Position numbers and translations under genes: made by a program. Shown here one piece after another: positions 26,052 through 64,000 of a DNA stretch of 64,000 bases. The notes beneath the pieces were generated by a model. It was not told where the DNA came from, searched no databases, and saw only the letters and a program-made list of their open reading frames with translations. How positions within the stretch are numbered: the first letter of the stretch is position 1; each line of letters opens with the position of its first letter. The DNA is from Branchiostoma floridae (lineage: Eukaryota > Chordata > Leptocardii > Amphioxiformes > Branchiostomatidae): the NCBI RefSeq assembly GCF_000003815.2, contig NC_049982.1, positions 23,505,918-23,569,917 of the forward strand, in the 5' to 3' direction.

Positions 26052-29000
26052 GTCCACAGATCAGATGGAAGACTTCATCCAGACAGCCACGCAGCAGGAG
26101 ACAGAGGCCAAGGACAAGCTGAGGAACTTCATCGAGGCCCTGACCAGCCGGACTGAGCGGGCGGAGAAGGAGGTGGAGTTCTACCGCAGCCAGTCTTCCC
26201 TGGTCAGTCTCAACTCTGCTGTCAGCTGTACCACATCTCTGTGTACCAAGTGCAAGAAGAGACAGGTACGTTTCCCTAGCATCTTTCTCGCTAAAAAAAT
26301 GTGTAAAACATTCAGGTACAGTTTATATGACACTTGGCTTGGAAAACTATTATGATGATTTTTTTAAGCCTTGAAAAGTTTGCAGTGGTATTAATGCAAA
26401 GTCATGATACCTTGAATATGTGTTTTGTCATTCAATACTTCAGAATTGTTCCAACCGTGAACTTCAAAAGTCGCGGAAACGTTTCCCTTCCTATATACAG
26501 CAAAATAGAACCACGGCAGAAATTTGAGTATAGCTTCCAAAGAGTTGCTTTTGTTATATCAGTAAGAATCTGTAGAATTTGCCAGCCTAAGATTCTTTCA
26601 TCAGATTTCTTTTTTGTCAATAAATGAATAATGAATTTAGCAGTTGAGATTTCGTGCAAATCAACATATCCATGTCATATTTTGTGTCCATCTACTACAA
26701 CTGCTTTTCTATATACTCTATATTGTCTTCATCTACATAACATCATGCCATTTAAACTAATAAGTGTAAAGCATTATATATCATAGCTTTGAGACTCTAG
26801 GAGTCTTGATAAGCATACACAACATTGCTTTTGAGATTTTAGTATCAATTTAGTAGCCTGGTATATATGTCTTAATGCCTGGTCCTGTTCTCAGGCACGA
26901 ATGTCAGCTCCTCTGGGCATGTTGCAACGCTCAGCCAGCGCCTGCAGCATCCAGCATCCCTCTGACATGGACACCAGCAGGAGACCCAGTGTCAGTCATC
27001 ATCAAAGGTACACACTCCAGCCAGCTTTCTCTTGTAGCATCTTGTATGAGAGCCTCCTGTTGGCTGTTACTAGTACTGCAACATACCATGTCAAAGTTAG
27101 ACCTTCTTATAGTTTATACCTGTGTTGAATGGGTGGTGCCCATCTCCATTCCCTTAGCCCTTGAGCCACCCAGATGTGCAAGCACAGAAAATGCTATAGC
27201 TGGGGCTAGTACATAGTTGCTAGCATTGAGCACGTTCAACTTTATTGGTAGTTTTATTCTTTTCGTATATACATTGTAGAGGATCAGCATTTTGTATGAC
27301 TTGGTTGAGGAATTGAACTACACATCCCATGCAAAAGAAGCATTCCTACCACTAGGCTATTGCTGGAGTTGCCAAAGATACCATCTGTTTCATGCAATCC
27401 TAACTTATTACATACACTTGACTTTATTTCCCCGTTCCATGTAGGTCCAGCAGTGTGGACCCAGTCCAGTTGAACGGTGGCCTGTCAGACCTGGTGAAAC
27501 AGGCCCGTGTTTTACACAGCAGCCAGGGGAAGGGCTCCCCCAACCAGCCCTCCACCTCCCCCAGGGGTTCCAACGACTCCGGCCTAGGGGACAGCGGCAA
27601 CGGCTCGTCACAGAGCGGCACGTACGCGACAGTCAGCCCACCTGCACCGCAGTATTATGACAACGACCTTCAACATCCCCAAGGTCACGGCATGGAGGTC
27701 CCTTACAACCGAGCCCTGTCGCCAGAGGAAATTGATGATTTGCAGGCTCAGGGTGTGATTTTCCCAGATAATACACCCCAGAACCAGAGAAGGTCACATA
27801 CATTAAACAATGGTTACTTGAGTAACAGCTATCCTATGTCATCACCATCCACAGGGCGGAGGGGAATGGCTAGTGAAAATGGTTACCACAGTAACAGGAA
27901 TGGTCTTCCCAATGCAACCCCTCCCACCCGCAGGAGGACAGCATCATATTCAAATGAGGAGAGATATCCAACCAATGACATGGCGTACCCAGTAACCACA
28001 CCCCCAACTGGGAGGAGACAGACTCCCCATTCAGGTTACCATAGCAACCTGACCACGCCCACTGCCACGCCCTTAAATGCTAGAAGAATGCAAAACAGTC
28101 CCAGTGGTTACCATGGCAATGGAATAAGTCCAAATGCCACCCCTAATATGGCACGAAGGAATCCCTATGGGAACGGTTACTATGGCAACAGTAGTGGGTT
28201 CCCTTCACCACAGTCCACGCCCAACCCTGTCAGAAGGCCGCAGTTCACAGATGAGGACAGCTACTTTGAAGACAGTTGTCAAGACGACAATAGTTTCCAT
28301 GACAACAGCGACAACTACGACCCCAATAGACAAGAGGTAAGAAACCATGTCAACAATCCACGGCAGAGAAATAACAGGAACCCTCCACAGCAGCAGCAAT
28401 ATCATCCAAGTGCAATGCCTTCACAAACCCCAGTGGGATACCCGCAGAACCGCAGCAAGAGACCTTCCATGGAGAGATTTGGTGGCAGCTTTGATGACGA
28501 GACCCTGACAGAAACGGGTTCCATTACCACGGTAACCACAGAATCAGCGTTTGATGATGACGATATGTTCATGAGCAGGAGAAGCAGTAGGAAGAGGAGC
28601 AGGAAGAGGCAGCAGGCTGAGCTGGTGAGGCGCAGACAGGATGCCTTGACTCTAGCCTTCAGCTACCTGGACACTAAGAGCCTGTGTGCCTGCTCCATGG
28701 TGTGTAGGGAGTGGACACTGATCAGTCGACAGCCTGCACTCTGGAGACAGGTTCACTTGGAGAGGGCCAGGGTTGGCTCCAAGGTTAGTATGAGGACTCC
28801 TATCAAAACTGAAATCCAAATATCTTAAACTTTGACTTCACAAACAGGATACTAGTATCTGGCAGACTTTGAGAGATTCTTGCTCAGGGCTAGATCAGTT
28901 GTACATGTTTCTCTTTTTGCTTAACAGTCTGCTTGTTGTCACTACAACTTACAAGTGCTTTTATCAACAAGGCAATTAGTCCTGTCCAAGTTTGCATATG

Positions 29001-33888: not shown

Positions 33889-33894
33889 TTTATT
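33889..33894 (-). terminator. Candidate poly(A) signal for the RING-UBL-TerD gene
   Basis: TTTATT on the plus strand is AATAAA on the minus strand, about 790 nt downstream of the stop of the gene ending at 34,683. The convergent FBXO41-like gene ends at about 33,260, so a 3' UTR ending here would leave the transcripts non-overlapping. Another minus-strand AATAAA lies at 33,462-33,467. Choice uncertain. Confidence 0.3.
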
Positions 33895-34682: not shown

Positions 34683-37296
34683 CTAAACACCCTGTTGAAT
34701 CAGCTTGCGAATGGTAGCTTTTAGGGAATCATAGTTCATTGCATTTCCTTGCGACAAGGTTCCCAAACTGTCAATTTTCCACACCCCAGTTTTGCGTGAG
34801 ACAGAGCACATGACAATGGCCTGAGAATGGGCAGCATGGTTCATTTGATCGCTACACAGTTGCTTATTCTTGTTGGAAGCTTCAAAGAACCTAAGACTTG
34901 GATTGGGATACTTGGAAATGTTTGGGGAGCTCCAAGCACTGAGGGTGAAGAACATGTGAGTGATATTTGAGGGTATTTCTTTGAGCTTAACATTAATAGT
35001 GTGATGGCCTTTCCTGTTATAGTCATCCATAACATCTCCTGAATGGCGGATGACACCACCATGGTAGAATGTATGACCATAATCAATGACAGCGATAAAG
35101 GATGTACCACTGAACAGCAAGCAAGAGGCATCCAAATAGTCACGCCCTTTATAAGGATACCCCCAGAACAGATCAAAGATGACGTGGTTGAAGTGCTCTG
35201 GGATGGCATACAGCATGATGATGAGGTGTACAGTGCTGTGGGGCTGTACTCCATAGTCCCCCATTGTGGCCAGTTGTCCACTGTTGGCGTATGTCTGTAC
35301 AAATTGCAAATATAGACACATAAAATGTATGCCCGTACAAAGTGTAATTCCATCATTCATTTGCAACTTCATAATACAAAAATTTAAGCGAAAGAAAATC
35401 TCTTGGGCATCAATATACAGGTATGACACTTTTAGTAAAAATTACAGTAACTGTAGTGTCAATTTTATTGTTACATCATGTATATAGAACTATACCTTAT
35501 TTCTTGTGGATATTGTTCAGCTGTAGTTCTTTGTAAAATGGTTACATGCATATCTTTCTGTAATGGCTAATGCAAAAATTGCATGCTATATTAAGAGAAA
35601 AAGTACATGGAACAGTGCATCTATTACTGAAAGTGAGAAAAAAACAGCTTGAGATTAATTAAAACCTTAAGAAGACAGAAGGGCAGCAAAAGATATTTGA
35701 CAAAGTTTCACATGCAGCCTTGTTTGTGTTACCTTCAACTCCACTTCATTGTAAATGAGCCGTTGTTTCTCCACATTATGGTGAAGCTGCTTCTGGATTT
35801 GCAGTTTTATCTGATGAATTGTTGTGGAAGGGTTGTAGGACAGACTGATGCTCTCTCCATTCATCATCACCACAGAGATCACCTTCGCCCCTCCCGATGC
35901 TCCCAATGCCGCCTGTAGGATAAAACATGAAGTCAAGGTGAGAAAGCTTTGTACTCTCCATACAGAATTATTATGATGCTTTAATATGCCATCATTCCAG
36001 TTGGTTTCCAGAAGAAAATGTATCTTTTCAAGTGAAAATCAATGTTGCTTTTGAAGTGAAAAGTCGTCAATGATTTTCACAGAGACAGTAACACTAACAA
36101 AGACAGTAACACCTTTGAATATGCAGGAATGCCACAGCACTGGCTACCTTTACAATTTGGGGCACGAAATGCTGCCTGCCAAAACGGCTATTGTGTCACT
36201 GCCTTCTCCGCAATCCAATTTGATTCAATATGTTATAATACAAGACCCATCCTACATGAATACAAACATTTGAACATGCAAATATTACATAGAAATCCTT
36301 CCATTCTCATTGGTCAAACTGAAGTTTGGCATTTTCTCATTGGTCAAACTACTAATTGTGATGGACAGTCAGAATCAGTCTCTTGTATTAACTCTATATC
36401 CTTTCGTTTTAGCAAAAGCAAACAGTGTAAACAAATCCTACGGATACAATGTACTATATAACAAGTTTTTTTAAATGTCCTGTATCCCCGGGAGATGGAT
36501 GCCAAATGCATATGGAAAGGTTAGATAAGAATTCCTCTCTTGCTTACAGTAGTGTAGTCCACAGTAGAGGTACTGGTGTACTCTGCAAACAGCCGGTTTA
36601 CTGTTGCCTGGAATTCTTTCAGCCTCACACAGTTACCAGGCACTTCTGCTTGGCAGGTTGGGTGTGGGCACTTCTTCTGTTGCTCAACTACTTTGATCAG
36701 ACACTGAAAATTGCAGGAACAGTACATGATTAAATATTGATACCACAAGCCTTCAGTGAAGATCAAGAACGCCAGAGGAAGGCCAAGAATATAAATTAGG
36801 CCACACTGTCTTAATTTTATGGATGACATGCACGCATTGATACATTTGTACATAAAATTCTATTATATGGCTTAACATTACATGTTTATAATTTTAACAA
36901 TAGAAAACAGCATGAAACCATCAACATAACTTTACTATTGGACAAGGACTTAACTTAGATTCACCTTTATCCATCGGCAACCTTTATCCGTTGTATTGAA
37001 AAGCAGCATATTTAGGGACATCAAGACGATGGAGGGTGGTTTTAGACTGAAATATTTTCAAATATTCTAGTTTGATACCAACGTTCGTAGATTTGATACC
37101 CTGTTTTTCAATACAACGGATATAGGTTACTAGTATCCTGCAGATAAAGGTGAACTGCCGTTACATGTCAAATGTAAAAGCAATGTTACATGCTTACCCT
37201 GAAGCAGTGAAGTGGAGGATGATAGCATGAGTCCAGTATTGTAACTGATGGGAACTCCTTTGACAGCTTCTCTACCTTACACCCAAGACACTTCAT
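34683..37296 (-). CDS. RING finger - ubiquitin-like - TerD domain protein (348 aa)
   Basis: Four exons in phase 0, transcribed right to left: 37296-37198, 36703-36548, 35912-35733, 35294-34683; every intron is GT-AG. Residues 3-50 form a RING-type zinc finger (C3-x2-C6, C24-x-H26, C31-x2-C34, C45-x4-C50), which suggests E3 ubiquitin-ligase activity. Residues about 96-170 form a ubiquitin-like fold (TIHQIKLQIQKQL, VEKQRLIYNEVELK, MGDYGVQPHSTVHLIIML). It lacks a terminal diglycine, so it is an integral domain and not a processed tag. Residues about 180-348 match the TerD stress-protein family (YLDASCLLF, IRHSGDV, TINVKLKEIPSNITHMFF, AIVMCSVSRKTGVWKID). The Asp-rich and SGD segments correspond to the TerD calcium-binding region. 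The ATG is the first in frame; an in-frame TAG lies 27 nt upstream if unspliced. A 5' UTR exon probably lies at 39,123-39,308. The gene is convergent with FBXO41 and divergent from RNF213. Confidence 0.85.
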
Positions 37297-37664
37297 GTTT
37301 CTTAACTTTACACAGTTGCTCTAAAATGACCAGAAATCTGAAGGAAAATGAAACAAAAATGAAAGTGAAAGTCCATCCATTGTCAGGGTTGACTACATAG
37401 CACAAAGCACTAAGAATTGGGATGAATAACTTGCCGAAAGAGCTTGTCAGCCAGCCAGAGAAATAGCTGCCTGTGAAGTATAATCTCCAAGCAGATGATG
37501 GGATGAAAAATCATAACGTTTCACTGATCGAATGTGCTGTAGAATGCATGGATGTACAAAAACATTTCAATTTTCCACCCAAACATCTGCTTGAAGAATA
37601 TTAGCCATCGGCCAAACATGATACCTTGATACTAGCAAATAAACTTTCATGATAAAATAACGTA

Positions 37665-43376: not shown

Positions 43377-46300
43377 CATAACAGCATAACTCAAGATGCC
43401 TTGGATGGATCCTAACGATATTTGGTAGGTGACAAGTTTGACAAGTTGACAAGTTTTATTCCGACATGTACGGCATTGCATCTGGTAGCTGAATTGCGCC
43501 GTCATTTACAAAGTATACGAACAGCTGTAATAAGATATGGGCACACTATTAAAAACTTAACAACACAAAACCAACAAGTAATTCTTAACTACAATGTTGT
43601 AGTGCATTCATCTTTGTAAAACGTTCATTATACATATAGAATATCAAGTTGCCATACGAAGGTTGTATCATTACAAATCAGGAGCAGTTCAAGATCTGTG
43701 GAGTAATTACTTATTCAATAAAGTATGGTATGGGGGAGTTCTTATATCTGTTAGTTTGGTACATTGGGGTGTCCAGTTTCTCGGACCTGCGAGTGGTACG
43801 TCCCGTCATGTGCTTTCTGGAGGGTGGGAGCCAGTCCCGGAACTCAGACTGTAGTAGTGACTCGCCGAAACTGGTCCAGATACGAATCCGTCGGTCTGAC
43901 AAGGTACTAAGGTCCAGTGTGGAGAGAGCCGAGGTATAGTCCGTATATTGGGATCTGAGAATGTTTCGACATGCCCTCTTTTGGATTCTCTCAAGTTTTA
44001 CTGTTTGGGCCATGGTCAGTGCCGAGTGCCACGCCGGTGCTGCGTACTCTAGCGTGGGTCTCACATACGACGTGAAGACTGACTTAAGGTCTGGGAGAGT
44101 TACACCAAAACGCTTGAGTCGACGAAGCATGTACAATTTCCTGTTGGCTGACACTAGCATGTTGTTAACTTGCATGTCCCATTTCAAGTCATTCTGCACA
44201 GTTAAACCTAGCACTTTGATGTGTGGCACGCACAACAGGGGTTGTGGAGGAGGAGGGGCCTTCATGAAGCACACTCGGAGTACGAAACATTTCTTTGGAT
44301 TTAAGGCCATTTTGTGGTCACTAACCCAAGTGCTAAGGTTGTCCAGAGTAGATTGTAGTGTACATGGCTGACGCACTAACCGGGTCTCTGCAATGTTCAT
44401 ATCGTCCACGAACTTCCAATGGTTGAGGACTTCACATAACGCTCCATCGATCAATGCCATAAAAATAACTGGTCCAAGAGGTGTTCCTTGCGCTACTCCG
44501 CAGCTGAGGTAGAGCCAGCCCGAGGGTTCACCCTGATAAATCACTCGCTGCCGTCTGTCGGTTATGAAGCTACAAATCCAAGGGATGACTCCCGGACAAA
44601 CACCAAGATCAAGTAAGGATCTAATAGCTGTGGTATGGTCCACTTTGTCGAAAGCTTTGGACAGATCGGTGGTAACAAGAGTGCAGATTGACTTTGACAC
44701 GGAAGTAGATTTGTAGAGGAAGTCCACTAAACTGACCAACGTGTGTGTTGTCGATCTGTGCTTCCTTCCACCAAACTGGCGGGGATCAAGCTTTGGAGAA
44801 ATGTCTTGTACTATCCAATTTGTCACGAAGCGTTCACAGAGTTTAGATAACATTGGAGTAAGAGAGACGGGCCGAAGTTCGTCGATGTTTGGAGGGCTCA
44901 GGACTTTGGAAGTGGAACCACGTTGGCTTCCTTCCATTGACGGGGTACGGTGCCTTCTTTCAGCGACGTGTTGAGTAAGTCACACAGAGGAGTGCTCAGC
45001 TCACACGCGAATTCCTTGAGAAGGCAGGCCAGAACTTTATCCGGTCCGGGACTCTTGTAAGTGTTGGTAGCACATAGATACGAGTAAACATCCCATTCCT
45101 GGATAACAGGTAACGGTTTGGCCGGAAGGAATGATGAGAGAGATGACAGCTCCAGTGGCGGGAGTGACTGAGACACGTCCGCGAACTAGGTGGGTAGGGG
45201 TCGAGAAAACGAAGGTCAAGTTCGATAATGGGCCCCCTAGCGGCTTGCTAAGGTACTGCAGCGGAAACTCAATTTTTTATATCTCGTGTTCTGGACATAC
45301 TGTGGTCATGATTTTTGAGTGATAGATAGCCCATAGGGCAGAGAGTATGCTGTGAGTTTGGGCCCCCTAGCGGCTTTTTGGTACTGCAGGCGCCGGTTTC
45401 CTTTCAAACTTTGGATGAGAATAACTCTACAACGTGTTGACAGATCTTCATGATTTTTGAAATGTAGATAGAATGAGTGTTGTCATACAAAATGGGATAC
45501 TAATTATGTACATGTAAATCAACAGCTAATTTGCATAATTAATGAGAAAAGTTTATAAATCCACTGCATTCCATGATAGGACTTCAAACTTGTCACATAT
45601 GTAGCTGAGAAGGAGAGAAATGTCAATAGATATCAATTATGCAACTGAAGACCCTATTTTCATAATTAATGAGACAATATGAACATGTTGACGGATCATC
45701 ATGTTTTTTGGTATGTAGGTAGTATAAGTGAAGACCTACATAATGAGATACCAATTATGCAAATCAACAGCTAATTCGCATAATTAATGAGGACATTTGA
45801 TAAATCCACTACATTCCATGATAGGACTTTAAAACTTGTCACATATGTAGCTGAGAAAGAGAGAAATGTTAATACATATTTATCATGCAAATGATGACTT
45901 CATTTGCATAATTAATGAGAAAAATATGAACGTGTTGATGGATCGTCATGATTTTTGGCATGTAAATAGCCTAAGTGAAGACTTATATAATGTGATACTT
46001 ATTATGCAAATTAACAGCTAATTTGCATAATCGGTTAGGAAAACTTTATAAATCCACTGCATTCCATTATAGTACTTTCAAAGTTGAAAGAGAGTAAGAG
46101 GTGTATTTAAAGACTTTGAAAGAGAATAAGTCAAGAATGGATCAAAGGATCATCACGATTTTTGGTATGCTGATAGCTTAAGTAATGCTTGATACAATTT
46201 TATATCAATTAATTGTAACTTGGGATCTAATTTGCATAATCAATGCCGAAATTTTATAAACCAACTCCAAGCATATAATTATAAAATGAAATGAGTAATG

Positions 46301-49300: not shown

Positions 49301-52300
49301 GTTGGTTTGCAGATTTTCTTGTAGACTTCTTTAGCTTGCTGTTGTTATATATGTAACAGTCAAGTTTCACCTTTAGCAGTAAGGTTAATTTACTCTCCCT
49401 GATTGTATGTATTAACTCATGAAACATTATATTGTAAGGAATCAGTGTTATATTACTTGAAAATTACCTCATGTATTCTTTAAGCCATACCCACCTCAAA
49501 TCAAGAACACATACCTCCCATTCTCAGGACAAAAGTAGCTATAGTGTTGCAGCAAAGAAAAAAAATTGGCTATACTCTACTTCAAAATGCAGGAAATAGC
49601 ATTTCAGAGGCTTAAAATTTCAAAATTCGGACCCCCCCTACAATGCTCGCGCCTTCGGCGCTCGTCGTGCGGCTCTGCCGCGCAGTGCGGAGAGTACAAC
49701 ACATTACAGGTGTACAGCCTAAAAAAAGTTCCTCGCTAAAAGTCTGCCCCGCGGTTGTCAGGCGTGCGTACTCTGACTTACAGTTGTTGTAATACATAAT
49801 TTCTGAAAATAGGGTTGGGACAGTCCATCCTCACTTCGGGACAGTTGAAATTTATTTTTGGGACAATGCTGGGACAGTAGGGAAAAAAGTTAATTTTGAG
49901 GCCTGATCGTGTCGACCTTCCACTTATTTCCCCCCGAGAAGAAGGGAGAAGGTGTCTGAATTGCTCAGATGACTGCAGTGATCTGGCGAACTTCATCGTT
50001 AAGGCTTCGCGACGGTCTTCGAGTGTGGGTAGGTCTAGTAAGTCACATGCCTTGGTGTAGGACGTAAAGTCAGGGCCTAAAATGATTCTGAAGGCACGTC
50101 TTTGAACGGATTCGATCTTCTTACTTAGCACGCTGGGTAGTCCGGGGTGCCACACGGGGGCACAGTACTCTGTTATGGGACAGATGTAGGTGATGTAAAC
50201 TGTCACAAGATCATCTGTTGGGAGGCGGAAGTGTTTGAGTTTACATAGGAGGAAGAGCCGTTGACTGGCTTTATTATACATAGTGTTGACATGGGTGTTC
50301 CACTTCAGGTTTGATTGAAGATGTATTCTAAGGATTTTCATAGATGGTACTTCTTGAAGGACAACATTACTGACTGTGAGTGGACGAGGGATGTAAGGGA
50401 CTTTGCTGAATTGTATGTGCATAACTTTGCACTTTCCAGGGTGGAGCATCATGTGGCTTTCTTTTGACCAGTTGTCCAAGTCAGTTAGGTCCTGTTGCAG
50501 GTGTGACGGACTTAGGGGTGGGTTCCGGACTTCCAGCATGTTCAAATCATCAACAAATTTCCAGCGCTTTGAGAGAGCTTCCTGCGCTGCACTATTAATG
50601 TAAGCAGTGAAGATAAGGGGGCCCAGTAACGTTCCTTGTGGCAGACCACAAGTGATCAGAACGCTGTTAGAACACACGCCGTGGTATCGCACCTCTTGGC
50701 GCCTGTTTGTGAGAAAATCGGCGATCCATCTGACCAGCAAAGGCCGCAGGCCGAGTTCTACAAGACGGCAAATGGCGAAAGTGTGGCTGACTCTGTCGAA
50801 TGCCTTGCTATAGTCAGTAGAGACTAGGGAACACGGAGTATTAGGCTTGTCACACGCCTTGAATAAAGTGTTTGTCATGTCTAGGAGGCAGTGAGTAGTA
50901 GATTGGCCTTTAATTCCACCGAACTGCTGAACGTCAATATTCGGGAGGATGTCTGTCATAGCCCACTGGCAGATGAAGTTTTCAGCGACCTTACTCAGGA
51001 GTGATGTTAGAGAGATAGGCCGAAGTTCATTTACGGACTGTGGTTTGCACTTGGGGACTGGGACTACCGTTTTTCCACTCATCTGGTACTAAACCTTGTT
51101 GGAGCGATGAGAAGAAACAACAAGCCTTTACAATCATGTATTTGTAGGAGCCACATGTAGGCTGTTTTGTTCATCTTAGCAGGCTGAAGTAATCAATATT
51201 CAATATATCGGCAAGGAAGATCAAAGAAGTACACTTTTAAAAGGTATATAGCTCCAAGGACTGTGGATTTTACATTGCATGACTGTGCTGAGAATATGTT
51301 AAACAGGGCATTTTCAACATACAAGGCATTGAACTCCATATTAAGCATTAATTTCCATAGCTCACACTTACAAATCTTGCTGCAGATTTGTCTACTTTCT
51401 CTCATGGTTGCAAAAGAAACCCATTAATGTGTGAGGGTTGCTCTGGATATGACGTCTTGGAAATTGTCTGTGCAATACTCACTGGCTGCTTGTCTCTCTT
51501 ACAACTGTGCAAACGTAATATCCCCTCGCCGACTTTGTTTGCATACCATTCCATAAAGATGCTCCAGTTTTTCCTGTGATGCATTTTGATGGCACAGTAA
51601 TGTCATCTTGACAGATTTCGAATCTGGGCAAAGCAACTTGCGTGTGCAGAAGCACCATTTACTGCAAAATTAGCACGTTTTGTGACATTTTAGGACAAGG
51701 TGGCATATGCTGGCCTTTTGCAGCAATATGCGACTGTTGAATGGTTCTGTGGTGGCAATAACTTCTGGTTAATCAGGGGAAAAACTCTGTACCACTGTAC
51801 TGTAGTGTCCGTACCCCATGTAGGGTCTCACTCTGTACCCCTGTAATGTCCGCATACCCCATGTAAGGTCTCACTCTGTACCCCTGTAGTGTCCGCACCC
51901 CATGTAGGGTCTCACTCTGTACCCCTGTAGTGTCCATACCCCATGTAGGGTCTCACTCTGTACCCCTGTAGTGTCTGCACCCCATGTAGGATCTCACTCT
52001 GTACCCCTGTAGTGTCCATACCCCATGTAGGGTCTCACTCTGTACCCCTGTAGTGTCCGTACCCCACGTAGGATCTCACTCTGTACCCCTGTAGTGTCCG
52101 TACCCCATGTAGGGTCTCACTCTGTACCCCTGTAGTGTCCGTACCCCATGTAGGATCTCACTCTGTATCCCTGTAGTGTCCGTACCCCACGTAGGATCTC
52201 ACTCTGTATTCCTGTAGTGTCCGCACCCCATGTAGGGTCTCACTCTGTACCCCTGTAGTGTCCGCACCCCATGTAGGGTCTCACTCTGTACCCCATGTAG

Positions 52301-55300
52301 GGTCTCACTCTGTACCCCTGTAGTGTCCGTACCCCATGTAGGATCTCACTCTGTACCCCTGTAGTGTCCGTACCCCATGTAAGGTCTCACTCTGCACCCC
52401 TGTAGTGTCCATACCCCATGTAGGGTCTCACTCTGTACCCCTGTAGTGTCCGTACCCCATGTAGGATCTCACTCTGTACCCCTGTAGTGTCCGTACCCCA
52501 TGTAAGGTCTCACTCTGCACCCCTGTAGTGTCCGTACCCCATATAGGGTCTCACTCTGTATCCCTGTAGTGTCCGTACCCCATGTAGTGTCTCACTCTGT
52601 ACCCCCTGTAGTGTCCATACCACATGTAGGGTCACCACCTGTACTGTCTAACCCCCTGTACTGTCTAACCCCCTGTAGTGTCTGTACTTCGAGTACTGCC
52701 CGTACTCCCTGTAGTGTCCTTACCCCTGTAGCTTCCATACCCCTTGTAGTTTTTGCACTCCCTGTAGTGTCTGAACACCCTGGAGTATCTGTATCCCATT
52801 TAGTGTTTATTCCACTGTGGCTCCATACCAGACCAGTAGTATTCTTAACTTCTGTAATCTACATACCCAATATTGTCTGTACCGCTTGTAGTGTTTGCAT
52901 CCCCTGTAGAGTCTGTACCCCATGTACTATGATGTAGTAGCTGTTCCCCCAAAACTATTCGTACCTGCTGTAATGTCCATTATTATCCCTGTATACTGTA
53001 AGTTTATTTATGTTCGCGAGCACTTGATTTCACGAGTTTGAGCAAATCGGGACTTCGCGAGATCTTTGAGTTTGTGAGTGGGTGTTTCAATTTTTTTCAA
53101 AAGTTGCGATCCGGTACTATGAAGGTAGCGAGTGACGCCCTCCCACCCACACCACAACACCAGTCATGCCGTCAAAGGCACCATTTACGCCTTTGAGTTC
53201 CAAATTTACATGTATAGTTACCCTTCAAACAATGTCTAAAGTTGGTGTACTCAATAAAAAAAATGTGTTTCTACCAAGCCACTGTTTCATTGCTGAGCTC
53301 GTTTCGGCCATGATTTGACGACAGCGCACGGAACGTAACAGGGCCAATGACCTCTGTTATGTCGCAATCACATTTGCCGCATAGGGTGATGGGATATCCC
53401 ACGCCAAACAAGTGACGTGGGCGCCGTTTTTTTATTTTTTCGGTGTGAAAGGCGGCGCTAAGTTTTAAACTTTCAGCGTAATTTGTGGACAAAAGTTGTA
53501 CACAAAAAGGTGAAGAGTTTATCTCTCCGATATTTATTTATTTTATATAATTTTATTTAATTTACAGTAGTTCTAACTCAGAATTATGAAACGAATGTCT
53601 TTTCTTTTTGGCATGTAAGCGGAGTTGTGTTTGCCACGTTTCTAGTCGCGAAAATTCCCCTCTATTATAATAATAGTATTATTCAATTGTTGTAAATCTT
53701 AGTTGCTGTAATTCCATAACCTTTCTTGTATTTGTAAAGACCAGTACTACTCAGTTTTATTTTTTGTTTCGTTCGTAACTTGTAGAAATCTAGTTAAACT
53801 AGGATAATGTACTAAGTAAATTGTTACCGCAGCCATGTCACGGCATGCACGTACAAAGCCGACGTTTCTTTTTCCTCCATTCGCCATTGGGACATTTCTG
53901 TACAATAATGACTCCATGTATCGTTTATGTGTTGAATTAACTTTTATTTCGGTTTGAAAAGAATAAATGGTCTGTTATCAACTGAGTCTTGTCATTGGTA
54001 TAAGTTACTATCATAGTACACACGTAGTTGAGACTGGATCTTTTGGACGGAAGGTATGGGGAGGGGGCGATGTTGAACATCATCATAGTGGCATGTTCGC
54101 GAGTAGATGACTTCGCGAAGAAGAGGTCTCAGCGAAATACGTGAACTTAAAAATCTCGCGAACTTAAATCAACTTACAGTAATCCATATCTGCTAATTAT
54201 CTGCGTGATAGTTACCTGCGTGATGTGCAGGTATAGTTTTAAGGTTCGTGTATTGTGTGTTTGACAGGTATAGGCAGGTTTGACTGTAGCTGTAAAATTA
54301 TTGGAAACTGTTGCTTTTTTCTGTAGGAACATGATCCTTCTGGGCACAACAAGGATGGTGATGTTAAGCACCCACCATCAGAGAGTTCAGGCCCCTTGGT
54401 AGAGCTTGAGCAAGGGAATGGCACACAGCACAGTAACAACAGGACAGAACAGAGCCACACAGACCAGCCTGTAAGCATAACAGTAATTGAATCTTATGCC
54501 ATTTTATGCAAATGCGTATCTAGAGATTGGAGATGGACACTTTTAACTGGAATTTACACACACTACATAATTCTTCATTTTCCATCCAGAAGATGTCTTG
54601 AGTAACTGTTGCGTAATCAAAGCATACACAATATTGTTTCCTCAAGTCAACTCATACATATATAATTACAGAAAGTCTGAGCAGTTTTCCTTATGTGCCT
54701 CTGCCAATTGAAGACACTTAATGTTATTGTACATGCAAGATGCATTGCTTTCCTTTTGAGTAATATTCTTTAGAAATCAGGCTAATTTTAAATTATTGCA
54801 GGACCAGAGGACAAATGGACAAGTGTCCCAAGTGAATGACACAAAGGCAAATGGAGCTGACGATATGCCTGCTCCTGGCGGGTACATGGTCACAAGAAGT
54901 CAGGAGAAGGAGGCTGCAGCAAGACAACAGGCATTTGAGCAGACAAAGGTATAGATTTCATTTAATTGTACTGACAGCATTGCGCACATCAAAATTACAT
55001 ATTAAGCATCTTTCTTTCTGGCTTGTGCTTCGCAATGGTCAGGCCTGGGAAAAAATGTTGTGTTTCCTGTTTCCCTAACTACCCTAAAAAAACTGCTGAC
55101 CTAGACCTTTTTTGGGTGGGCAGTGGTCAGTCACATAGTTTCCAGTTGGAATTTTTATTCAGCCTGCTTCCTATTGGTTCATCAGAAGTAAAACACTGCT
55201 TGTCCTATCTAAATGAAGGATAAATATCCTTTAGAAATTTAAGTTTGACATTGAAAGACAAGTGTCATCATGCATTTCAGTTTACTTTGTTCAACTCTAT

Positions 55301-58300
55301 TGTATGTATTACTAGAGAGTACAAGGAAAAAAAAAAGATAATCCCTACCTACCGATCCTAATTTTTTCATGGATGAAACAGAAAACACACATTTTTTTTT
55401 CTAGGCCTCATGTTCTGATCAGGGTATAAGAATATGTTCAGGTGGTAACATACATGTAACCTGGACACAAAAACAGAAGCTGGTGACATGCAGTCTGTTG
55501 TTCTTTTCCATCTTTGCATGTTTAAGTACTCAGTTGAGCAAAGACTAACAGTCACCTTAAACAACAGGGTGCTGTAACTTTTGTATGTCCCCTGACTTTG
55601 GACGGATTTTTAGTTGTCACATTGCACAGAAACAAGCCATGTTTGTTTTTGTCAACAATGCTGAATTATAGAATTGTTAAAAACATTGGTAAAAAATTGG
55701 TAAAAAAGTTAAAGCATAGACTTGTTGTCTGGATAAAATATTGAATTGTGTACAGTAACCAATTTTTGCTTCGCCAGACAAATTTGAGCATTATAATTAT
55801 ATGTATCTGGTCTCCTTCAGTCAGTAATGACCATAGTAAAATCCTAACTGATATTAGCCTATAGCTCTATGCTATGACCTAAAACAGTCATATGCAAGAG
55901 TGACAGTCTCTACCACATAGGGCACATCCGTGTAGCCTGACTAAGGTCTGTTGTAGAGTCCTTTTCTCAGGATTCGCTTTTCTCCTGCTATGTAGATCAG
56001 TCTGGCTTCTCAAGATTTTAGCTGTCTGGACAGTGTGCATCTTTAGCTGGATCTGTCATTTGCAAGGCCCTCCCAGTACTAGTGCTCTTTGTCAATATCG
56101 AGAGTCTGCATGTCCCTCTTTGAAATGCAGCAGCGGCCGCCCGGTGAATCTCTTTCCTGAGATCAGTTCCCTGTAGAGTATGTCTTTGGGCATTCGACCA
56201 TCCTCCTTGTGACGGATGTGGACTAGCCAGCATAGTCTGTGTTGTCAGAGCAGGGTAAAAACTGGTCACCATGATTTGACCAGTATGCAGTAGATACACC
56301 TCATGTGGAAAGCATTTAGTTCTCCTGCTTGGCATAGGTGGACCTTGTTTTGCTCCCATGCATTTTCAACATGTATCTTGCCATTAAACTGACCTTAAAT
56401 AATTATGTGGAGACAATGGTGTCACCTCTTCGAGGATGAACTGAACTGAACTAGATAACAAAATAACCATGGTGTCGAATGCCCTCCTCTTTTCACATCA
56501 CGGTAATTCTGTTGCCCCCGGTTCAAATGTGCCACAGAAGTAGGGTCACAAAATGGTGAAATTGCATGTAACCTAGCTTGACACATGTTGGATAAACTTG
56601 TGTTTGGTAAATCCTCAGTTGCTGGCTTACAGTACACAAGCTGACCCACGATGGGATATTGGTTGATAGTTTATTGATTGCAACCAATCACCGAATACAT
56701 GGCAACATGTAAGCAAATACATGTACATTGTGTTTGCTACATCAATTCAGCGTGCTACAGTGGTACATCAATATATGTAACCTAGCCCAATGAAGTTTGC
56801 AGACGGACCGGCTTTGATCTGGCATGTGTGGCCTATTTGACAATGAGTGATTGCTGAATCTGTATACGACATTTATATATTAATGGCTTGCTCTATATGA
56901 AATCTGAAAACATGAATAACAGGCTCTAATTCTAAAAAATGAGGAGTGGTTCGGAATATGTCGTAACTTTGCACTCGCATTTTGTACATTCATTCTAAGT
57001 AAGAGCTATTGGTATGAAATGAAGTACTTTCATTTTCATACAAAGACAAAGCAACTGACTGTCAATGTTGACAAGGCTTGAAATGCAACAAGCAGCGTAA
57101 GCAATTGTTAAGTTACAGCAGGCCTCGTATACATGTAGGTGGAGACTTACGCATGATCGGTAGAGACTTATATCTGCATGGTCAACAAATTTAGAGAGAA
57201 GCCAAAGTTAGTTGACACATTGTAATTCGTCCTTCTATTTTACTTAGAATTGTCCCAACTCAAATAGAGACAATGGAAGTTGGTACGCTGTTTGAATAGA
57301 ACAATGTTATGTTATGTTCGTATTGATTAACAACATTTTTCTGGCTTTATCGGCTGACATTCATGGTGTAAACTGTGCATGGTCAATGGACAATCAACTT
57401 CTCAATGGAAAATCTCCAACACACAGTCACTTTCATTTATCATTAGAAGAAACGACACTGGTGCAATTGTGACAATTTCAAATTCCTTAAATTTACGTCC
57501 GAAGTTAGGGGACCCACCATTACTTTTCATGACTTATGAATATGAGATAGGCAGGTTGCAATTGCTTTGTGTATATGCACTTTGGCCCAAATTTGTATGA
57601 TGTTAGAAGTAGATATCTGTAAAAGACTTAACTTTACAGCTTGGTAAATAAATGTTACCAGTGTGTAAGCAAAATTTTCAGAGCTTTTATGTTTATGACC
57701 TGATTGGCTTTACAGCTTCTCCAAGTAGAGTTTTTCCTGTATGCTCCGGAAATTGATGACTACTCAGCATGTGAGGCTGTCCTGTGTGTCAGTGACAATG
57801 GACAGAGTAAGAACTATCCATTATGGGCAATTGATGAGAAGATTTTGTGGACAACAAAATCTCCTGTGTACTTACCAGTTGACAAGGAGACACGCTACAA
57901 GTATAGTGTACTGTACAAAGCCAAGACATCATTCTTCCAGAGAATCTTTAATGTGCGCAAAGACATGGAGGCTTGCTGGGTACATGAAGTGGCAGCCTCA
58001 GTTCATGACACACAGAGCATACACAGGGACATCTTCAAGGACCCAAATGTATTCTACAAGGATGAAGAGTTCTACGGGAAGTTGTTCTTCACAGAAGATA
58101 TTTTCAATGCTGTAACATTTGGAAACCTAAAGGAGAAGCTACTGGAATGGGAATATCTACAATTCCCAAATACAAGCTTGACAACAAAGGAGGAAAGAAA
58201 AGAAATTCTCGGAAGAATTACAAAGTTATCATGGAGAGCAACAAAAGTACAGAAAGCTTTCCTTTGTGTTGTGCTAGGGAAAATGTCCCAACAGAGTGGG

Positions 58301-61300
58301 TTCCACTTGAAGAAGCTTGAAGTCGCCACTGCTAAGTCACTCCTTCAGGGTCTGTCAGGTTTAACAGTAGAAGACCTTCCATCCACCTGCATAGGTGGCT
58401 TGAAGATCATGGTACCACAACTGTTGTCAGCAGCAGATACAGTTGAGCCTTGGCTCTGGCTTCTTGGCAACTGCAGCAAACTTTTTGAAACTGGCTACCT
58501 TATACAGCAGGCAACATCACAAGAGTTGAAAGAGTGGTCAAAGAAGCATACTCCTGCACAGTACATGGAGCACTCAAATGTTCCCATATACAATCTGATC
58601 CACACTCATCCAGGAGGCTCACATAGAGATCGACTTCTTGTGGCCATACAGAGGGAGGCTCCTGACATTGATACAAAGATTGCTATCTTTGATACAGTTG
58701 CTGGAGATTGGCAGGCTGAAAACTTGCAAGAAGTTCTGGAACCCATGAAGCTCAACTGTACAGCAAGTGTTGAGAATGCTATCAGATCACTGAAGGGGCC
58801 CAAGCAGGTAGAGGAGCTGTATCAGCTGTGGAGGAAAGTTGAGAGAATGGGCCTACCCGTGGAAGACATGATAGCATCAGCAGTGACTCAGCTGGCTGCC
58901 AAATCCTCATTTCCACAAGATCAGATCACCAAACTACAGATGCTGATGACAGACAGAAAGCTCTTCTCCAGTAAGAAGGCACTGGACCTTTTCAAAGTCA
59001 TAGCAGCATCAAAAGATCCAGTATTTCAGTCCATGTTCCTCGCACTAGCTCATGATGAAAAAATGAGCCAAGTAGTTGACAAAGAAGATGCAAAGGAATT
59101 GTCTGTGATGTGGCTACAGACTTCCATAGACGCACACTGTACCACAAGCCGGATGTCCTACCAACCCTCTGTGGTAGCAAGTCTAAACATACAAAGAGCC
59201 TATGATGATCTGCTTAAGGTAATGGGAACTGTTCTTGTAGGTCATGACCAAACAATTGAAAGAGCCCTTGGAGAAGTAGTAAAAGGCTTCATCAGAAAGT
59301 TTGGGTGGAAGGTAATGCTGAAGAAGTGTGAAGATATGAAGAATATGTCAGAACAAGCCCAGGGCCTGTATAAAGAACACCTGGAAGAGATGATCAAGCA
59401 AGAGGGTAGTGCCCAGCTGTCTGAGGATCTGCTGGAGATAGCCTACAGTATTTGTGATATGAAGCATGCCAAGGCACCAGGAGGACTGGATATCAAGTAC
59501 AAGTAAGCAAGACTTTGTAAGTTTTAAATTAGAAGAATCAAGGAAAATGTTGGCAAGATGATCTACATATTAGTAAGATGATTTTTTAAAACTATGTGTA
59601 AGTTATGTACAGTGTAGTTGAAGAACAGTGAGCGTTTTCTACTGCTCACACGATTTAAGTTAATCATACAGACACACTGGTTTACATCCATCACTTCTTT
59701 TTACTCAAGAGCTAAATTAAACATGTTGGATATATTACCGGGTAACCATTATATTGCTGTTACTCCTTTTCACATAACCTTAAAGGCAATATCAATTTTT
59801 TTCACGCTGACAGAAGATCTGTTGGTAATGCTGATCAACTTCGTGGACTTGCCCGAGAGAAATCCCGACCAAGACCTGACAGTCAACCTCCAGTTCCTCT
59901 TGACTGTGATAGAAGAGTCTCGATTTTGGCTTGCCATACTCAATGCCAAGGGAAGGACAACTCAACTACATAAGCATCCAAAATGCAAGGCAGTCACTAG
60001 TGTACTCAAGGACTTTGGAGACCAGTTGCAGTCAGGACACATAAACATCCAACTTTTCCAAGCAGTGGTTGAGAAAGCCAATGGTGTGAAAGGAGGTACT
60101 GATGTGCTTGCTGTACTTGTTGATGCTACAAGAAAGAACGCAGGACAGGGCAGCAATGCAAAACTGACAAAGGATGTGCTGAGGGATATTAACAAGCAAC
60201 TGGAATCACACAAGCAATTGCTGGACAACATAGAGAACCTGCTGAAGGTTTTCACCACTATGGTGGAGGACCATGTGAAGATCACTGACATCTCACACCT
60301 TCGAAGTGACCTCCATAAGCAGAAGAAGAGGTTTAAAGAGGACAGAGCTTTGACAGTGGCAGACTTAAGTCAACCGACATACTGGGACAAGCTGCATGAC
60401 CTGCAAGAGCCAGCTTGTCGTCTCAATGGCTTCCAAAATTCATTTGTTTTCAGAAATGTTGTCCAAAAGCACTTTGCAGAGATGGACTGGGAAGACGATG
60501 ATGATGAAGAAGATGATGAGAGCTCTGACAAGTCAGGAGAGAACAAGCCACCTGCACCTTTAAGTGCAGTTGAAACAGATCCCAGTTCATCTACTCCTCC
60601 AACCATCTCAATGGTGCAATTTGTCAGCACTCTGTCAGAAGAGGTTGTAGAACAATTCAAAGATCAATGCCAACCACTCACTGAGTACAACCCAAAGATT
60701 CCATTGGAAACCATACAATACATGTTCGGAGGCATCACTGATGCCAATAAAATGGAGACAGAGTTGTCATGCCTTGATCGCATACTATGTCTTGGTAGTA
60801 GAATCCCTTCTTCAAATAGGAAGGCTCTAAAGGAGTTTGTTGAGTTTCCCAAAACCCAAAAGAAAGTACACAACTTGTCAGCTGCACTTCAACTGTTCCA
60901 AGTCTCAGTGGAAACTTCCAGTGACCTTGGTACTGCCCTCCAACTCTGCGAGAAAGGAGTTGTACAAGGTACCTCTTTGAGCGAGCTTCACAGAGCTGTG
61001 GACAAGGTGGAAAAGATCATCAGCAAACTATCAGATGAGGACAATGACATCATAGAACAGCTGAGTAGATCATCAGAGCTACTGGCCTTTCTTAGAGATA
61101 TAGTGGATGAAGACCTGAGGAACCTAATAGATGCTGTGGAGGAACACTCTGAGCAATTTGTCAATGAATCCACTGTCTCAAATCTAATTGAGGTAAAGAG
61201 GTACTTGCAGCCACTACTTAAAGACAACTTCGACAACAACCCAGAAAGGTTCATCCACAAACTTCAGCACTACCATGAGCTGTCAATCAGAAATCTCCCA

Positions 61301-64000
61301 GAGAAGATCAGTGACTGCAGCATCAATTTCCACAGTTTGAAGGGCCTTTATGCAAGTGTAGCCAATCGAGGAGAGATGACAAAGGAAATAGCTCACAATG
61401 CATACATGAAAGGTCGATACACTTTTGATCTGAACAGTTCGAGTACATGCAAGGTGACCATGTCTTATGACAGGGGGCAAACACAAGCTAACCACTCTAT
61501 GTCAGACCTTCGTGACTTCCGTAGCAGGGCCTTTCTCATTGTTAACTCAGATAAAGGCCTGACATGCCCACCTGGAGAGGTGCAGACAGTCTCTGAATCA
61601 TCCACAGAACTGTCTCACTTCATTAGATGCATAGATCTGGCCTCCAACATTGCCTTGTCCTGTGAAAGTCTCCATTCATCTGGGCACTTCAAGTACAAAA
61701 CCTTTCAAACATCTGTGTCAAACATTGAGGAACTAGAAGACTTAGATGCAAAGTTGAGGCATGACTATGAAAACTGGCAGGAGACACTTAAGAGGGCCAG
61801 AAGGGAGTACTACTATCTCAACTACCTGTACTCTGATCAGCTCTGGATCCTCGATGATTTCTTCAATGGGAAGCCCATTACACCCGAATTGCATTCACTC
61901 TTCCACTTTATTCATCCATCAATCACTGTGACTCAGGATATGAGGAAGAAGTACACATCACCAAAGAAGGGAGATAGTCCTTACAAAAGACTCTGTCAGA
62001 TTGGCTTAGCAATGTACAACATATGTGGAAATCATCAGGCTCCAAAGAGACCAATGGACAAGAAGCAGAAACAACAGTCACCCAGTACAACAACCTCAAC
62101 TATATCATCGCTGCGTACAATGGTCCAACCTGGGAAAGTCTTTGTAGCAGCACTTGATGTAGGAAGCTCACAAGTGGTGAACGTCATCATGAATCTGTAT
62201 GAGAGTACAACAGGAAGTTTCCCAGAACCAAATCAAATCATCATCTGCAGTCCAGACACAGAATGGGAGGAACTTCACCTTCTTCTCCAAAGGTGTGTTG
62301 GAGCTCCAAACCAGCCTGAACTGGGCAAGTGTCTGTTCTGTATTGCTAATGTGGAGGTCCTACAGAGTGACATACAGTTTAGGCTTGTGGATGAGATCAA
62401 ACAACTGCACTCATTAGAGAGCCCTTTCCTCATGGCTTTGGTGTGCAGAGGAGGTGCGCATCATCCAATCCTGGATCAGTTTTCACGCCTCACCCACAGG
62501 ATCCAAGGCATGAGCGATGTTGCTATGAGGCAATGCTTTTCCACATTGTGGCCAAATGTAAAAATGGTGACATCAGACATCCCTGGATTGGGGAAGACAG
62601 AGTTTGTTCAAGAGCAGGCAAGCAGAAAGGGCATGGGAGTGGTGTCATTCCCTATAGGAGGAACAATCACCAAAGACTACATGGTGAAACGATTAGCCAA
62701 CCTCAGAGTACAGCCATACCAAGTTTTGCACCTGGACATTTCACCTGTAGATGACCCAAACCTGCTGGATGCCTTCATTTTTGAGCTCATTGTTGTAGGT
62801 GCCGTACATTCTGGAACAAGTTTTGTTGGTAGACCCACAGAGTACATCATCATGGAAGTAGCCAACACCCTGAATCATGCTCTGCGCAACACATTGGTAA
62901 CAAGCATGTGCTTTGAAAGGGTCCATCTCAAGTGGGAGGACTACCAAAACTTCATCATCAGTCCAGAGGTCAACAGCCCAGTTCAAGTGGTGTGCCACTA
63001 CTTGGAGGCCTTGGACAGAGCAACCATTGATGAGACAGACATACCACTGTCAGGACCAAAGAGGGTCCCTCCTCTCCCTGCTAAAAGGTGTCAGGATCTT
63101 TTGAGAAAGCATTTCTCAACAGGTGCCGACCTTTCCTTTACCATAGTTGAGATATTTTTGTCCGTTCTGGCAGACCAGCTCAAGAAATTCTCAGCTAGTC
63201 AGTACTTTCGCACTGCGAATCTACGCATCATGTTGGGAGATAAACAACAGCACCAAGTACGAAGGAACCTGTTCACAGCCCTGCTAGATGTTTCAAAGGA
63301 ATTCGCATCCCGGTCAGTACTATCCTGCCGCAACACTCAGTCATCTGCAATGACAAAGGAAAAAGCTGTCCAAAAGCTGAAAGAAGCTGCAAGCACAACA
63401 TCGTCAGCCATGCAAATGGTCGATCGAGTAGAAGGAATGATTCGTTGGGCAGACAGCAACCATTTGATGGTCATCTTTCACAGCCAGGATGCACAAACTG
63501 TGTCTGCACTGTACAGGAGCCTCCAACAAGTCCCTGTCAAAATAAAGGAATTGTTCAAACAACAGGTCAACCGACCACTTTCTGAGTTTTCAAGCTTGGC
63601 ACAAGGTGAGTTGCAAATAATACTGGAGCGGATTGCTCGAACTACATCTCACAAGCTGAAGAAAGAAGGGACTGGTACACTTGACACAAGGTATGCCCTA
63701 ACACCAGACAATCTGTTGAAGATGGCACTCGTCATTATGAGGGTGAGGGCTCGCATCCCAGTCATCATCATGGGAGAGACAGGCTGTGGCAAGACAAGCT
63801 TGATCAGATACCTTGCAAAGACATGTGAAGTTCCGTTCAAGGTCCTCAGCATCCATGCTGGAGTCACTGAAGATAAAATCACAGACTTCGTGACAGACAG
63901 AGCTGCAGAAGCAAGGAAAGATCTGTCTCGTGAGGTTTGGGCCTTTTTGGATGAAATCAACACCTGTGACCATCTTGGACTAATCAACGAAATCATCTGT
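39589..64000 (+). CDS. RNF213: RNF213-like giant AAA+ E3 ubiquitin ligase, N-terminal part (3' partial)
   Basis: RNF213 (mysterin) is a dynein-like AAA+ E3 ligase acting in innate immunity, lipid droplets and ubiquitylation of bacterial LPS. Exons: 39589-39636 (ATG GGT GAC GAA), 54327-54470, 54802-54948, 57716-59502, then about 59710 or 59814 to beyond 64000. The first junctions are GT-AG in phase 0. The first ~110 residues are polar and disordered. The fourth exon opens with VEFFLYAPEI and has TKSPVYLPVD...YKYSVLYKAK, suggesting the CBM20-like module known near the RNF213 N terminus. It is followed by long helical segments, as in the RNF213 stalk. The fifth exon has an acidic run (WEDDDDEEDDE), a first AAA-like P-loop DIPGLGKTEF (62,576-62,605), then GETGCGKTSLIRYL (63,773-63,814) and FLDEINT (63,944-63,964). 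GETGCGKT corresponds to the catalytic AAA3 of human RNF213. The sequence ends there, so AAA4 and RING lie outside the window. Confidence 0.88.
39715..39860 (+). repeat. Left part of a dispersed repeat (ATGGAGGTATATATTG type)
   Basis: Contains ACCTCCAGGGAAAATGGAGG, a small inverted repeat, then TATATATTGTTTTTGCATG, a short (TG)n run and GTCCGGATATGTG. The distinctive end AAGGTATGTGTTCGTGGAAC at about 46,350 looks like the other end of the same kind of element. I infer that 39,715-46,385 is one old repeat torn apart by later insertions. Confidence 0.4.
40378..41110. mobile_element. 733-bp element with 47-bp terminal inverted repeats
   Basis: The left end GGCCCCGTTCATGATGCAAA, continuing with ATGAAACGGTTCTAT and GGTTAGGCC, is matched in inverse at the right end (CTGGCCTAACCGATAGAACC to CATCATGAACGGGGCC) with about three mismatches in 47 bp. 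The flanks are TAA at the left and AAA at the right, so a Harbinger-like 3-bp TWA duplication is possible but not exact. The interior carries a perfect hairpin at 40,931-40,979 and no transposase. It is inserted in the GAAACGCCATTTCC repeat. Confidence 0.88.
40931..40979. repeat. Perfect hairpin, 22-bp arms, 5-nt loop
   Basis: GAAACCATTTCAATACTACC with TC pairs perfectly with its inverse after the loop GCGAG. A partial third repeat of the arm (TCAATACTACCTCC) follows directly, which suggests local hairpin-mediated duplication. Confidence 0.9.
41990..42420 (+). repeat. Dispersed GGGCCCCCTAGYGGC repeat, plus-strand copy
   Basis: Contains TTTGGGGGCCCCTAGCAGC, GGTACTGCAACG, CTATCTCGTGTTCTGAAC, ATGGTCACAATTTTTGGATG, a second weaker GGCCCTCCTAGCAGC, and TTTTCATGATTTTTTTGGCA. 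The same order appears at 45,215-45,480. Confidence 0.65.
42775..42828. repeat. (CT)n and (TA)n microsatellite
   Basis: Mixed CTCTCT/TGTCTC runs followed by TATATATATATA, forming the left flank of the element at 42,829. Confidence 0.9.
42829..43188. mobile_element. 360-bp MITE with CAGGGCTCGAAAT inverted ends in (TA)n
   Basis: CAGGGCTCGAAAT at 42,829 and its inverse ATTTCGAGCCCTG at 43,176-43,188 bound the element; TATATATA flanks both sides. Subterminal regions are full of GGTGCACCCA strings. CAGGG ends are usual for hAT elements, and TATATATA could be the 8-bp target duplication, but the microsatellite flank makes this undecidable. The 2.5-kb element at 47,424 shares the CAGGGCTCGAA end. 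Confidence 0.8.
43189..43378. repeat. Compound (TA)n/(CT)n microsatellites
   Basis: Alternating TA and CT dinucleotide runs with CTATCTGT interruptions. They continue the microsatellite into which the MITE inserted. Confidence 0.95.
43425..45195 (-). mobile_element. CR1/jockey-like LINE, 5'-truncated, frameshifted RT
   Basis: Minus-strand reverse transcriptase. The 5' part of the frame (about 45,176-44,900) reads YKSPGPDKVLACLLKEF and VPRQWKEANVVPLPK. A frameshift near 44,900 leads into ELRPVSLTPMLSKLCERF, DPRQFGGRKHRSTTH, DLSKAFDKVDH, GVAQGTPLGPVIF and the catalytic FVDDMNI (F in place of the usual Y/A position). The C-terminal TNRYKNSPIPYF follows. The 3' UTR ends with AATAAA and three AACTTGTC-type 8-bp repeats (43,431-43,455), a CR1/L2-style tail with no poly(A). 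The 5' break is near 45,195, inside the GGGCCCCCTAGYGGC repeat. Confidence 0.88.
45200..46385 (+). repeat. GGGCCCCCTAGYGGC repeat followed by ~246-bp AT-rich tandem units
   Basis: The first 250 bp hold two GGGCCCCCTAGCGGCTT strings. Then units of about 246 bp recur, marked by CAGCTAATTTGCATAATTAA near 45,523, 45,768 and 46,016. Each unit has TATAAATCCACTGCATTCCA, GTCACATATGTAGCTGAGAA and a GGATCATCATG..TTTTGG string. The block ends near AAGGTATGTGTTCGTGGAAC. Several ATTTGCAT octamers and TAATTA cores are embedded. Confidence 0.75.
46386..47009. other. Intronic sequence with two diverged ends of the AGGCCACA element
   Basis: No exon seen. CATAGAATTTACTTGCTGTGG near 46,793 and TTAGGCCACACCGACTTAAT near 46,854 match the terminal repeats of the 412-bp element at 37,665, but they face outward and are diverged. 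Probably the remains of adjacent insertions. Confidence 0.4.
47424..49905. mobile_element. 2.48-kb DNA transposon (non-autonomous) with 5-bp target duplication
   Basis: The left end CAGGGCTCGAAGTTAAC and right end GTTAATTTTGAGGCCTG are imperfect inverted repeats. ATCGT flanks both sides (47,419-47,423 and 49,906-49,910). Subterminal direct repeats built on GGGACA (GGGACAACTG, TTTTTGGGACA) lie at both ends. No transposase is recognisable. The interior includes a second pair of inverted ends (CAGGCTTTTAGCTAG at 47,569; GCTAAAAGTCTGCC at about 49,735), suggesting a nested insertion. It interrupts the LINE at 47,010-51,150. Confidence 0.8.
47569..49748. mobile_element. Possible inner element with CAGGCTTTTAGCTAG ends
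   Basis: The CAGGCTTTTAGC-type left end and its inverse at the right match the smaller element at 22,223-22,577. The left interior (47,590-47,910) is CpG-rich, with ATTGG boxes, GTGACGTA and an E2F-like TTTTCGCGGGAAAA at 47,885-47,898. A second spot near 48,748 has ATATAAAAATGGCGGGAAAA. It therefore resembles a captured promoter. Boundaries are approximate. Confidence 0.4.
51151..51784. other. Intronic, nothing recognised
   Basis: AT-rich intron sequence of the RNF213-like gene. Short open frames only, no repeat partner found. Confidence 0.5.
51785..52640. repeat. 41-bp minisatellite, about 20 copies
   Basis: The unit TCTCACTCTGTACCCCTGTA plus GTGTCCGTACCCCATGTAGGG is repeated with point variants (CGTA/CGCA/CATA, GGG/GGA/AGG), and one unit near 52,285 is shortened. 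Degenerate half-units continue to about 52,930. The unit is itself made of two related halves, each containing GTACCCC-TGTAG. It is located in the large first coding intron of the RNF213-like gene. Confidence 0.95.
52994..54181. mobile_element. 1.19-kb element with TACTGTAAGTT...TTCGCGAG inverted ends
   Basis: TACTGTAAGTTTATTTATG followed by TTCGCGAG at the left is matched in inverse by CTCGCGAA then CTTAAATCAACTTACAGTA at the right (two mismatches in 27). Subterminal CGCGAGATCTTTGAGTT and AACTTAAAAATCTCGCG extend the symmetry. No coding sequence is evident. It ends 146 bp before the second coding exon of the RNF213-like gene. Its TACTGTAA ends resemble the small MITE at 23,774. Confidence 0.8.
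55990..56260 (-). mobile_element. LINE remnant: C-terminal RT-ORF tail, frameshifted
   Basis: The minus strand reads RLCWLVHIRHKEDGRMPKDI, LYRELISGKRFTGRPLLHFK, then after a frameshift RDMQTLDID and WEGLANDRS. This is the well-known C-terminal tail of endonuclease/reverse-transcriptase LINE proteins (RLCWLGHV.RM.DGR.PK..LYGEL..GKR..GRP.LR). Stops and shifts show a dead copy. It lies in the intron before the 57,716 exon. Confidence 0.75.
56261..57715. other. Intronic, nothing recognised
   Basis: Third intron of the RNF213-like gene. Only short open frames and no clear repeat. Confidence 0.5.

Follow-up and report, generated by a model that had tools for sequence, protein, structure and literature searches.

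An amphioxus gene predicted to join a RING-like zinc finger, a ubiquitin-like domain and a TerD domain

TerD domains are familiar mainly from operons for stress response and phage defence in bacteria, and to our knowledge their ligands are still unsettled, even though resistance to tellurite and phages has long been studied. TerD-annotated proteins also exist in invertebrates other than the one studied here. Eukaryotic TerD-type proteins include Dictyostelium CapA and CapB, T. brucei FAZ28 and FAZ30, and Chlamydomonas radial spoke protein 1 (PMC10953051, PMC3188802). Here we analysed a 64,000-nucleotide stretch of the Branchiostoma floridae genome (the window) and describe a gene on its reverse strand whose 348-residue product would carry a RING-like zinc finger, a ubiquitin-like domain (UBL) and a TerD domain, in that order. 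An earlier sequence-only reading of this DNA had proposed such a fusion.

Domains of the predicted protein

The TerD profile of Pfam (PF02342) matched residues 179-325 above its cut-off (E 1.6e-10; 41.2 bits against 25.3), over positions 19-175 of 187, which supports the proposed TerD assignment. The LDAS and H-x-GD motifs of bacterial TerD are kept in the amphioxus domain, and its predicted fold is the TerD beta-sandwich. The Pfam ubiquitin profile matched residues 98-171, again above cut-off (E 2.6e-10; 40.3 bits against 25.4), and 26 of the 69 residues aligned to ubiquitin are identical. The Leu8/Ile44/His68/Val70 patch of ubiquitin corresponds to M102/I138/H168/I170, and there is no C-terminal diglycine: residues 171-182, from the last UBL strand onward, read IMLYAIPEHFNH. 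In NCBIfam the search returned only rad23, below cut-off (E 0.11). These observations bear out the claim of a UBL that lacks a diglycine end and could serve as a docking domain, in that the Ile44-type patch is kept; judged by its residues, the UBL could plausibly dock and not be conjugated.

The N-terminal finger is less clear-cut. Its ligand series, C3-x2-C6-x17-C24-x-H26-x3-H30-C31-x2-C34-x10-C45-x4-C50, satisfies a relaxed RING zinc-ligand pattern (which allows H30 or C31 and was written after the sequence had been seen) but not the strict spacing, with its final C-x2-C. Four of 20,000 shuffles of residues 3-78 satisfied the relaxed pattern, a figure that overstates significance because the pattern is post hoc. 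The best Pfam RING profile, zf-RING_2, stayed below its cut-off of 27.3 bits, with 7.1 bits for the whole protein (E 8.7) and 9.7 and 11.8 bits for two fragments (E 1.3 and 0.31), and a phmmer search with residues 1-93 against the PDB gave no match at E 10. G5, V38 and Q51 stand at the presumed E2-contact positions (given this ligand assignment), where an aliphatic residue, Trp, and Arg or Lys are usual in active RINGs. The RING is weaker than had been claimed: it matches by relaxed ligand spacing and not by profile or strict spacing. We regard the N-terminus as a probable zinc-finger domain of ubiquitin-ligase type that would bind zinc; ubiquitin ligase activity is doubtful.

The description of the TerD domain as a calcium-binding stress sensor is not supported. 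Thirty-five bacterial relatives share 11 conserved acidic columns, of which the amphioxus domain keeps two (D55 and D87 of exon 4), and each of the 35 bacterial rows keeps at least 71% of its own ~13-14 acidic columns in a leave-one-out comparison; other conserved columns are kept at 25 of 63, so that the acidic-column contrast is modest. Where the bacterial proteins have the GDN-x-TG-x-G-x-G-DDE loop, the aligned amphioxus residues read GDVMDDYNRKGHHT, in which some acidic residues remain. Calcium sensing is unsupported by these residues; the loop may still bind metal weakly.

Relatives outside the host were distant. A scan of bacterial contigs with two peptide patterns, an approach that may miss relatives, yielded 137 stretches with 86 relatives, of which 80 were retained (22-30% identity). 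In a plasmid search 1352 of 72,556 records matched, none of them at 60% identity or more (26.5-28.9% for the best 20 of the 1352), and a phage search matched one of 50,697 records at 25.2%. Scans of viral contigs gave no confirmed relative, either with the full protein (19 stretches) or with an alignment (85 stretches). A library of viral folds gave 13 matches at E ≤0.001, some of which are phage proteins labelled TerD-like and one of which comes from Tetraselmis virus 1, and PADLOC gave no match at E 1. No close bacterial donor was seen in the plasmid, phage and bacterial-contig searches as scoped here. The label "prokaryotic-type" calls for caution, since the bacterial loci are this distant and TerD-type domains are known in other eukaryotes.

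Gene structure and genomic setting

The four exons (Table 1) form one reading frame from ATG to stop; every junction is in phase 0 and all three introns have a GT donor and an AG acceptor. The exon coordinates and junctions that had been claimed proved exact. We ranked splice sites with a simple consensus score, its weights taken from general knowledge, among the 373 GT and 330 AG sites of the reverse strand at 33-39 kb. The donors of exons 1, 2 and 3 ranked 2, 12 and 5, and the acceptors of exons 2, 3 and 4 ranked 19, 4 and 13. The top-scoring acceptor of this 6-kb region puts the first exon base at 37337. An in-frame stop lies between this base and the ATG, so any upstream exon would be non-coding in the ATG frame, which fits an intron in the 5' untranslated region (UTR). 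Introns 1, 2 and 3 are 494, 635 and 438 bp long and contain 15, 8 and 6 in-frame stops when read through; GC content is 0.45-0.49 in exons versus 0.31-0.36 in introns. Exons 1 and 2 meet after residue 33, inside the zinc-ligand pattern, which supports their join. Exons 3 and 4 meet after residue 145, within the ubiquitin domain, so UBL and TerD belong to one protein.

Genome scans covered the 513-Mb, 431-contig assembly, in which the gene lies at 23.5 Mb of contig 4. Wnt is an animal-specific family, and its 47 matches in this assembly, versus none in 14 control genomes, indicate that the host is an animal, in agreement with the sequence-only reading. PF02342 matched the genome once, in exon 4. 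The whole protein gave 15 matches at E ≤1: four are its own exons, ten form tandem repeats with a 228-bp step on two contigs, at up to 39% identity, and were read as polyubiquitin, and the last is weak (E 0.06). The RING part gave three matches: two are exons of the gene itself, and the remaining one, at E 1.47, was taken as chance from its E-value. No paralogue of the whole protein or of the RING part was found in this search. We take this to be an authentic animal gene that, within the reach of the search, occurs in one copy. An exon-by-exon search of the same genome for TerB (PF05099), TerC (PF03741) and TelA (PF05816) gave no match at E 0.001.

Table 1. Coordinates of the TerD-fusion gene and of other features of the window
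Feature	Position	Strand	Content
Exon 1	37198..37296	-	Residues 1-33: ATG start and N-terminal half of RING-like domain, with C3, C6, C24, H26, H30, C31
Exon 2	36548..36703	-	Second half of RING-like domain (C34, C45, C50) and linker; residues 34-85
Exon 3	35733..35912	-	First two thirds of UBL; residues 86-145
Exon 4	34683..35294	-	End of UBL, whole TerD domain, stop codon; residues 146-348
Probable 5' UTR part of exon 1	37297..37337	-	Upstream of the ATG
Possible polyadenylation signal	33889..33894	-	First AATAAA/ATTAAA 3' of the stop codon, ~0.8 kb on
Inverted repeats	37665-37698/38043-38076		34 nt, 97% complementary, 344 nt apart; directly upstream of TerD gene
Diverged repeat-arm copy (79%)	36798-36835		In intron 1
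RNF213-like gene	57704-64000	+	Runs off the window; long open frames, AAA domain
F-box	27422-28828	+	Long exon at these coordinates, F-box near its end; Pfam F-box-like, E 1.3e-9
Two reverse-transcriptase frames	43711-44979, 49778-51088	-	RVT_1, LINE-like; between TerD and RNF213-like genes
Tandem array	51800-52633		41-bp unit, 12.2 + 8.4 copies in two adjoining blocks; + strand pyrimidine-rich
Tandem array	3325-4545		Period ~146-158 bp

The inverted-repeat pair looks like a small element of the miniature inverted-repeat transposable element type, and the two reverse-transcriptase frames resemble long interspersed nuclear elements (LINE). In the RNF213-like gene, the 59618-63997 frame matched the solved RNF213 structure with E 2.9e-19 over frame residues 1356-1459; the gene's nearness to the TerD gene is co-location only.

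Possible roles of the protein

We tentatively favor the reading, at a probability of roughly 45%, that the protein works in the ubiquitin system as an adaptor or E3 ligase, with TerD as its recognition domain. The sequence itself shows the UBL and TerD domains in this order, an intact reading frame, a zinc-ligand series, an Ile44-type patch, the lack of a diglycine and a predicted TerD fold; zinc binding, E2 recruitment, a TerD ligand and the pathway as a whole are what we infer beyond these. In this pathway the C-terminal TerD domain would recognize a protein or small-molecule ligand, and the non-conjugatable UBL, with its Ile44-type patch, would dock the protein to the proteasome or to ubiquitin receptors. 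The zinc finger at the N-terminus would recruit an E2 or a partner RING, so that a target recognized by TerD would be ubiquitylated or delivered. Several points weigh against such a role. No RING profile reaches its cut-off, and the final C-x4-C pair and the G/V/Q residues at the E2-contact positions make catalytic competence doubtful. The architecture was seen here in one animal genome, and the joining of exons 2 and 3 in the RNA is presumed from the genomic sequence. The predicted fold is not independent of the sequence match because the usable structure model was built with bacterial TerD rows; a single-sequence model of exon 4 was too poor for use (predicted local distance difference test score, pLDDT, 37.6).

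With RING catalytic markers this poor, a scaffold without catalysis is a competing reading to be taken seriously, although we consider it somewhat unlikely. Here the zinc finger would not be an active RING, the UBL would dock and TerD would hold cargo, much as in a shuttle factor. The sub-threshold RING profiles, the residues G5, V38 and Q51, the C-x4-C pair and the well-preserved UBL are consistent with this idea; by contrast, the zinc-ligand series is complete and in order, and the C-P-x3-C spacing of its last pair is also found in RING1 of RBR ligases, which the pair resembles. A component of cilium or centrosome, with TerD as a structural interaction domain and not a stress sensor, is unlikely: although excerpts on other eukaryotic TerD-type proteins place them in a radial spoke, a flagellum attachment zone and a centrosome screen, they do not mention RING or UBL for these proteins, a common fold proves no function and no pointer to cilia was seen in the window. 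Bolder, and a little more doubtful still, is the possibility that a bacterial stress or defence ligand sensor became a one-chain ubiquitin switch, in which TerD would bind a small nucleotide-like or pathogen-derived signal and control the RING-like module and the UBL dock. This idea derives from proposals in two papers: one on jumbo phages suggests that a nucleotide-like signal might be sensed by TerB and TerD (PMC7824862), and the other places TerD among domains possibly recognizing specialised nucleotide derivatives (PMC7159879). If true, the switch would be an innate-immune or stress sensor with a ubiquitin readout.

Two further explanations concern the gene model itself. A small RING-like gene and an adjoining UBL-TerD gene could have been misjoined across intron 2, as the exon 2/3 junction falls in a linker spanned by no domain and a stop lies 8 codons into the intron, making a RING-only product conceivable. 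However, the two exons share phase, the donor and acceptor are good, the intron is comparable in length to the other two, and the exon 3 frame has no in-frame ATG back to an upstream stop above 36038 (considering ATG starts only, other upstream exons aside). On phase, splice-site quality and this ATG-less frame we accept the join as the presumed one in the RNA, and we judge a misjoin improbable. Bacterial contamination of the assembly, or a transfer from bacteria in the very recent past, could be argued for the TerD part from its relatives, which in sequence searches are mainly bacterial. The gene nevertheless has three introns and lies 23.5 Mb into its contig, the assembly has 47 Wnt matches, the window also carries the RNF213-like and F-box genes, and the 80 bacterial loci kept are 22-30% identical. 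Introns, deep contig position and animal-type neighbors lead us to reject contamination, and this explanation as a whole is extremely improbable.

Comparison with described systems

The amphioxus domain resembles bacterial TerD, TerE and TerZ (PF02342; 3ibz, 2kxt, 2qz7, 2qng) in passing the Pfam cut-off, in predicted fold and in the LDAS and H-x-GD motifs, and differs from them in its low identity to the 80 loci kept and in the replacement of most conserved acidic positions, including most acidic loop residues of the calcium-binding Klebsiella TerD (2kxt). Unlike bacterial Ter systems, it is fused to a RING-like finger and a UBL, in a genome that gave no TerB, TerC or TelA match at E 0.001. 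No description of an animal RING-UBL-TerD protein was seen in open-licence PMC text among the matches listed; the main text of PMC12410001 does not mention TerD, and that of PMC13342648, a compendium of horizontal gene transfer (HGT), contains no "tellur", TerD, Branchiostoma or amphioxus. A coral "tellurite resistance protein" was rejected as a TerD candidate, its KEGG label being TerC (PMC3750612).

In its presumed working the protein is akin to TRIM proteins, which combine an N-terminal RING with a C-terminal beta-sandwich (PRY-SPRY) recognition domain. It differs in having a UBL in place of the B-box and coiled coil, TerD in place of SPRY, and a doubtful RING where that of TRIM proteins is canonical; the Pfam list contains no B-box, and residues 51-97 contain a single Cys (C58) and lack His. 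Parkin, HOIL-1 and UHRF1 share with it a diglycine-free UBL with a docking or regulatory role in a zinc-finger ligase, but their domain order and partner domains are different and Pfam reported no IBR in the amphioxus protein. Like the Dictyostelium, T. brucei and Chlamydomonas proteins, it represents the recruitment of a TerD-type domain into a eukaryotic protein; those proteins, however, belong to cAMP-binding, centrosomal or flagellar settings, with RING and UBL unmentioned in the excerpts on them. The gene extends the scattered set of eukaryotic TerD-type proteins by one from an animal, and an animal TerD hard-wired to ubiquitin-system modules would offer a testable read-out of what TerD binds, in the form of altered proteasome docking or ubiquitin transfer.
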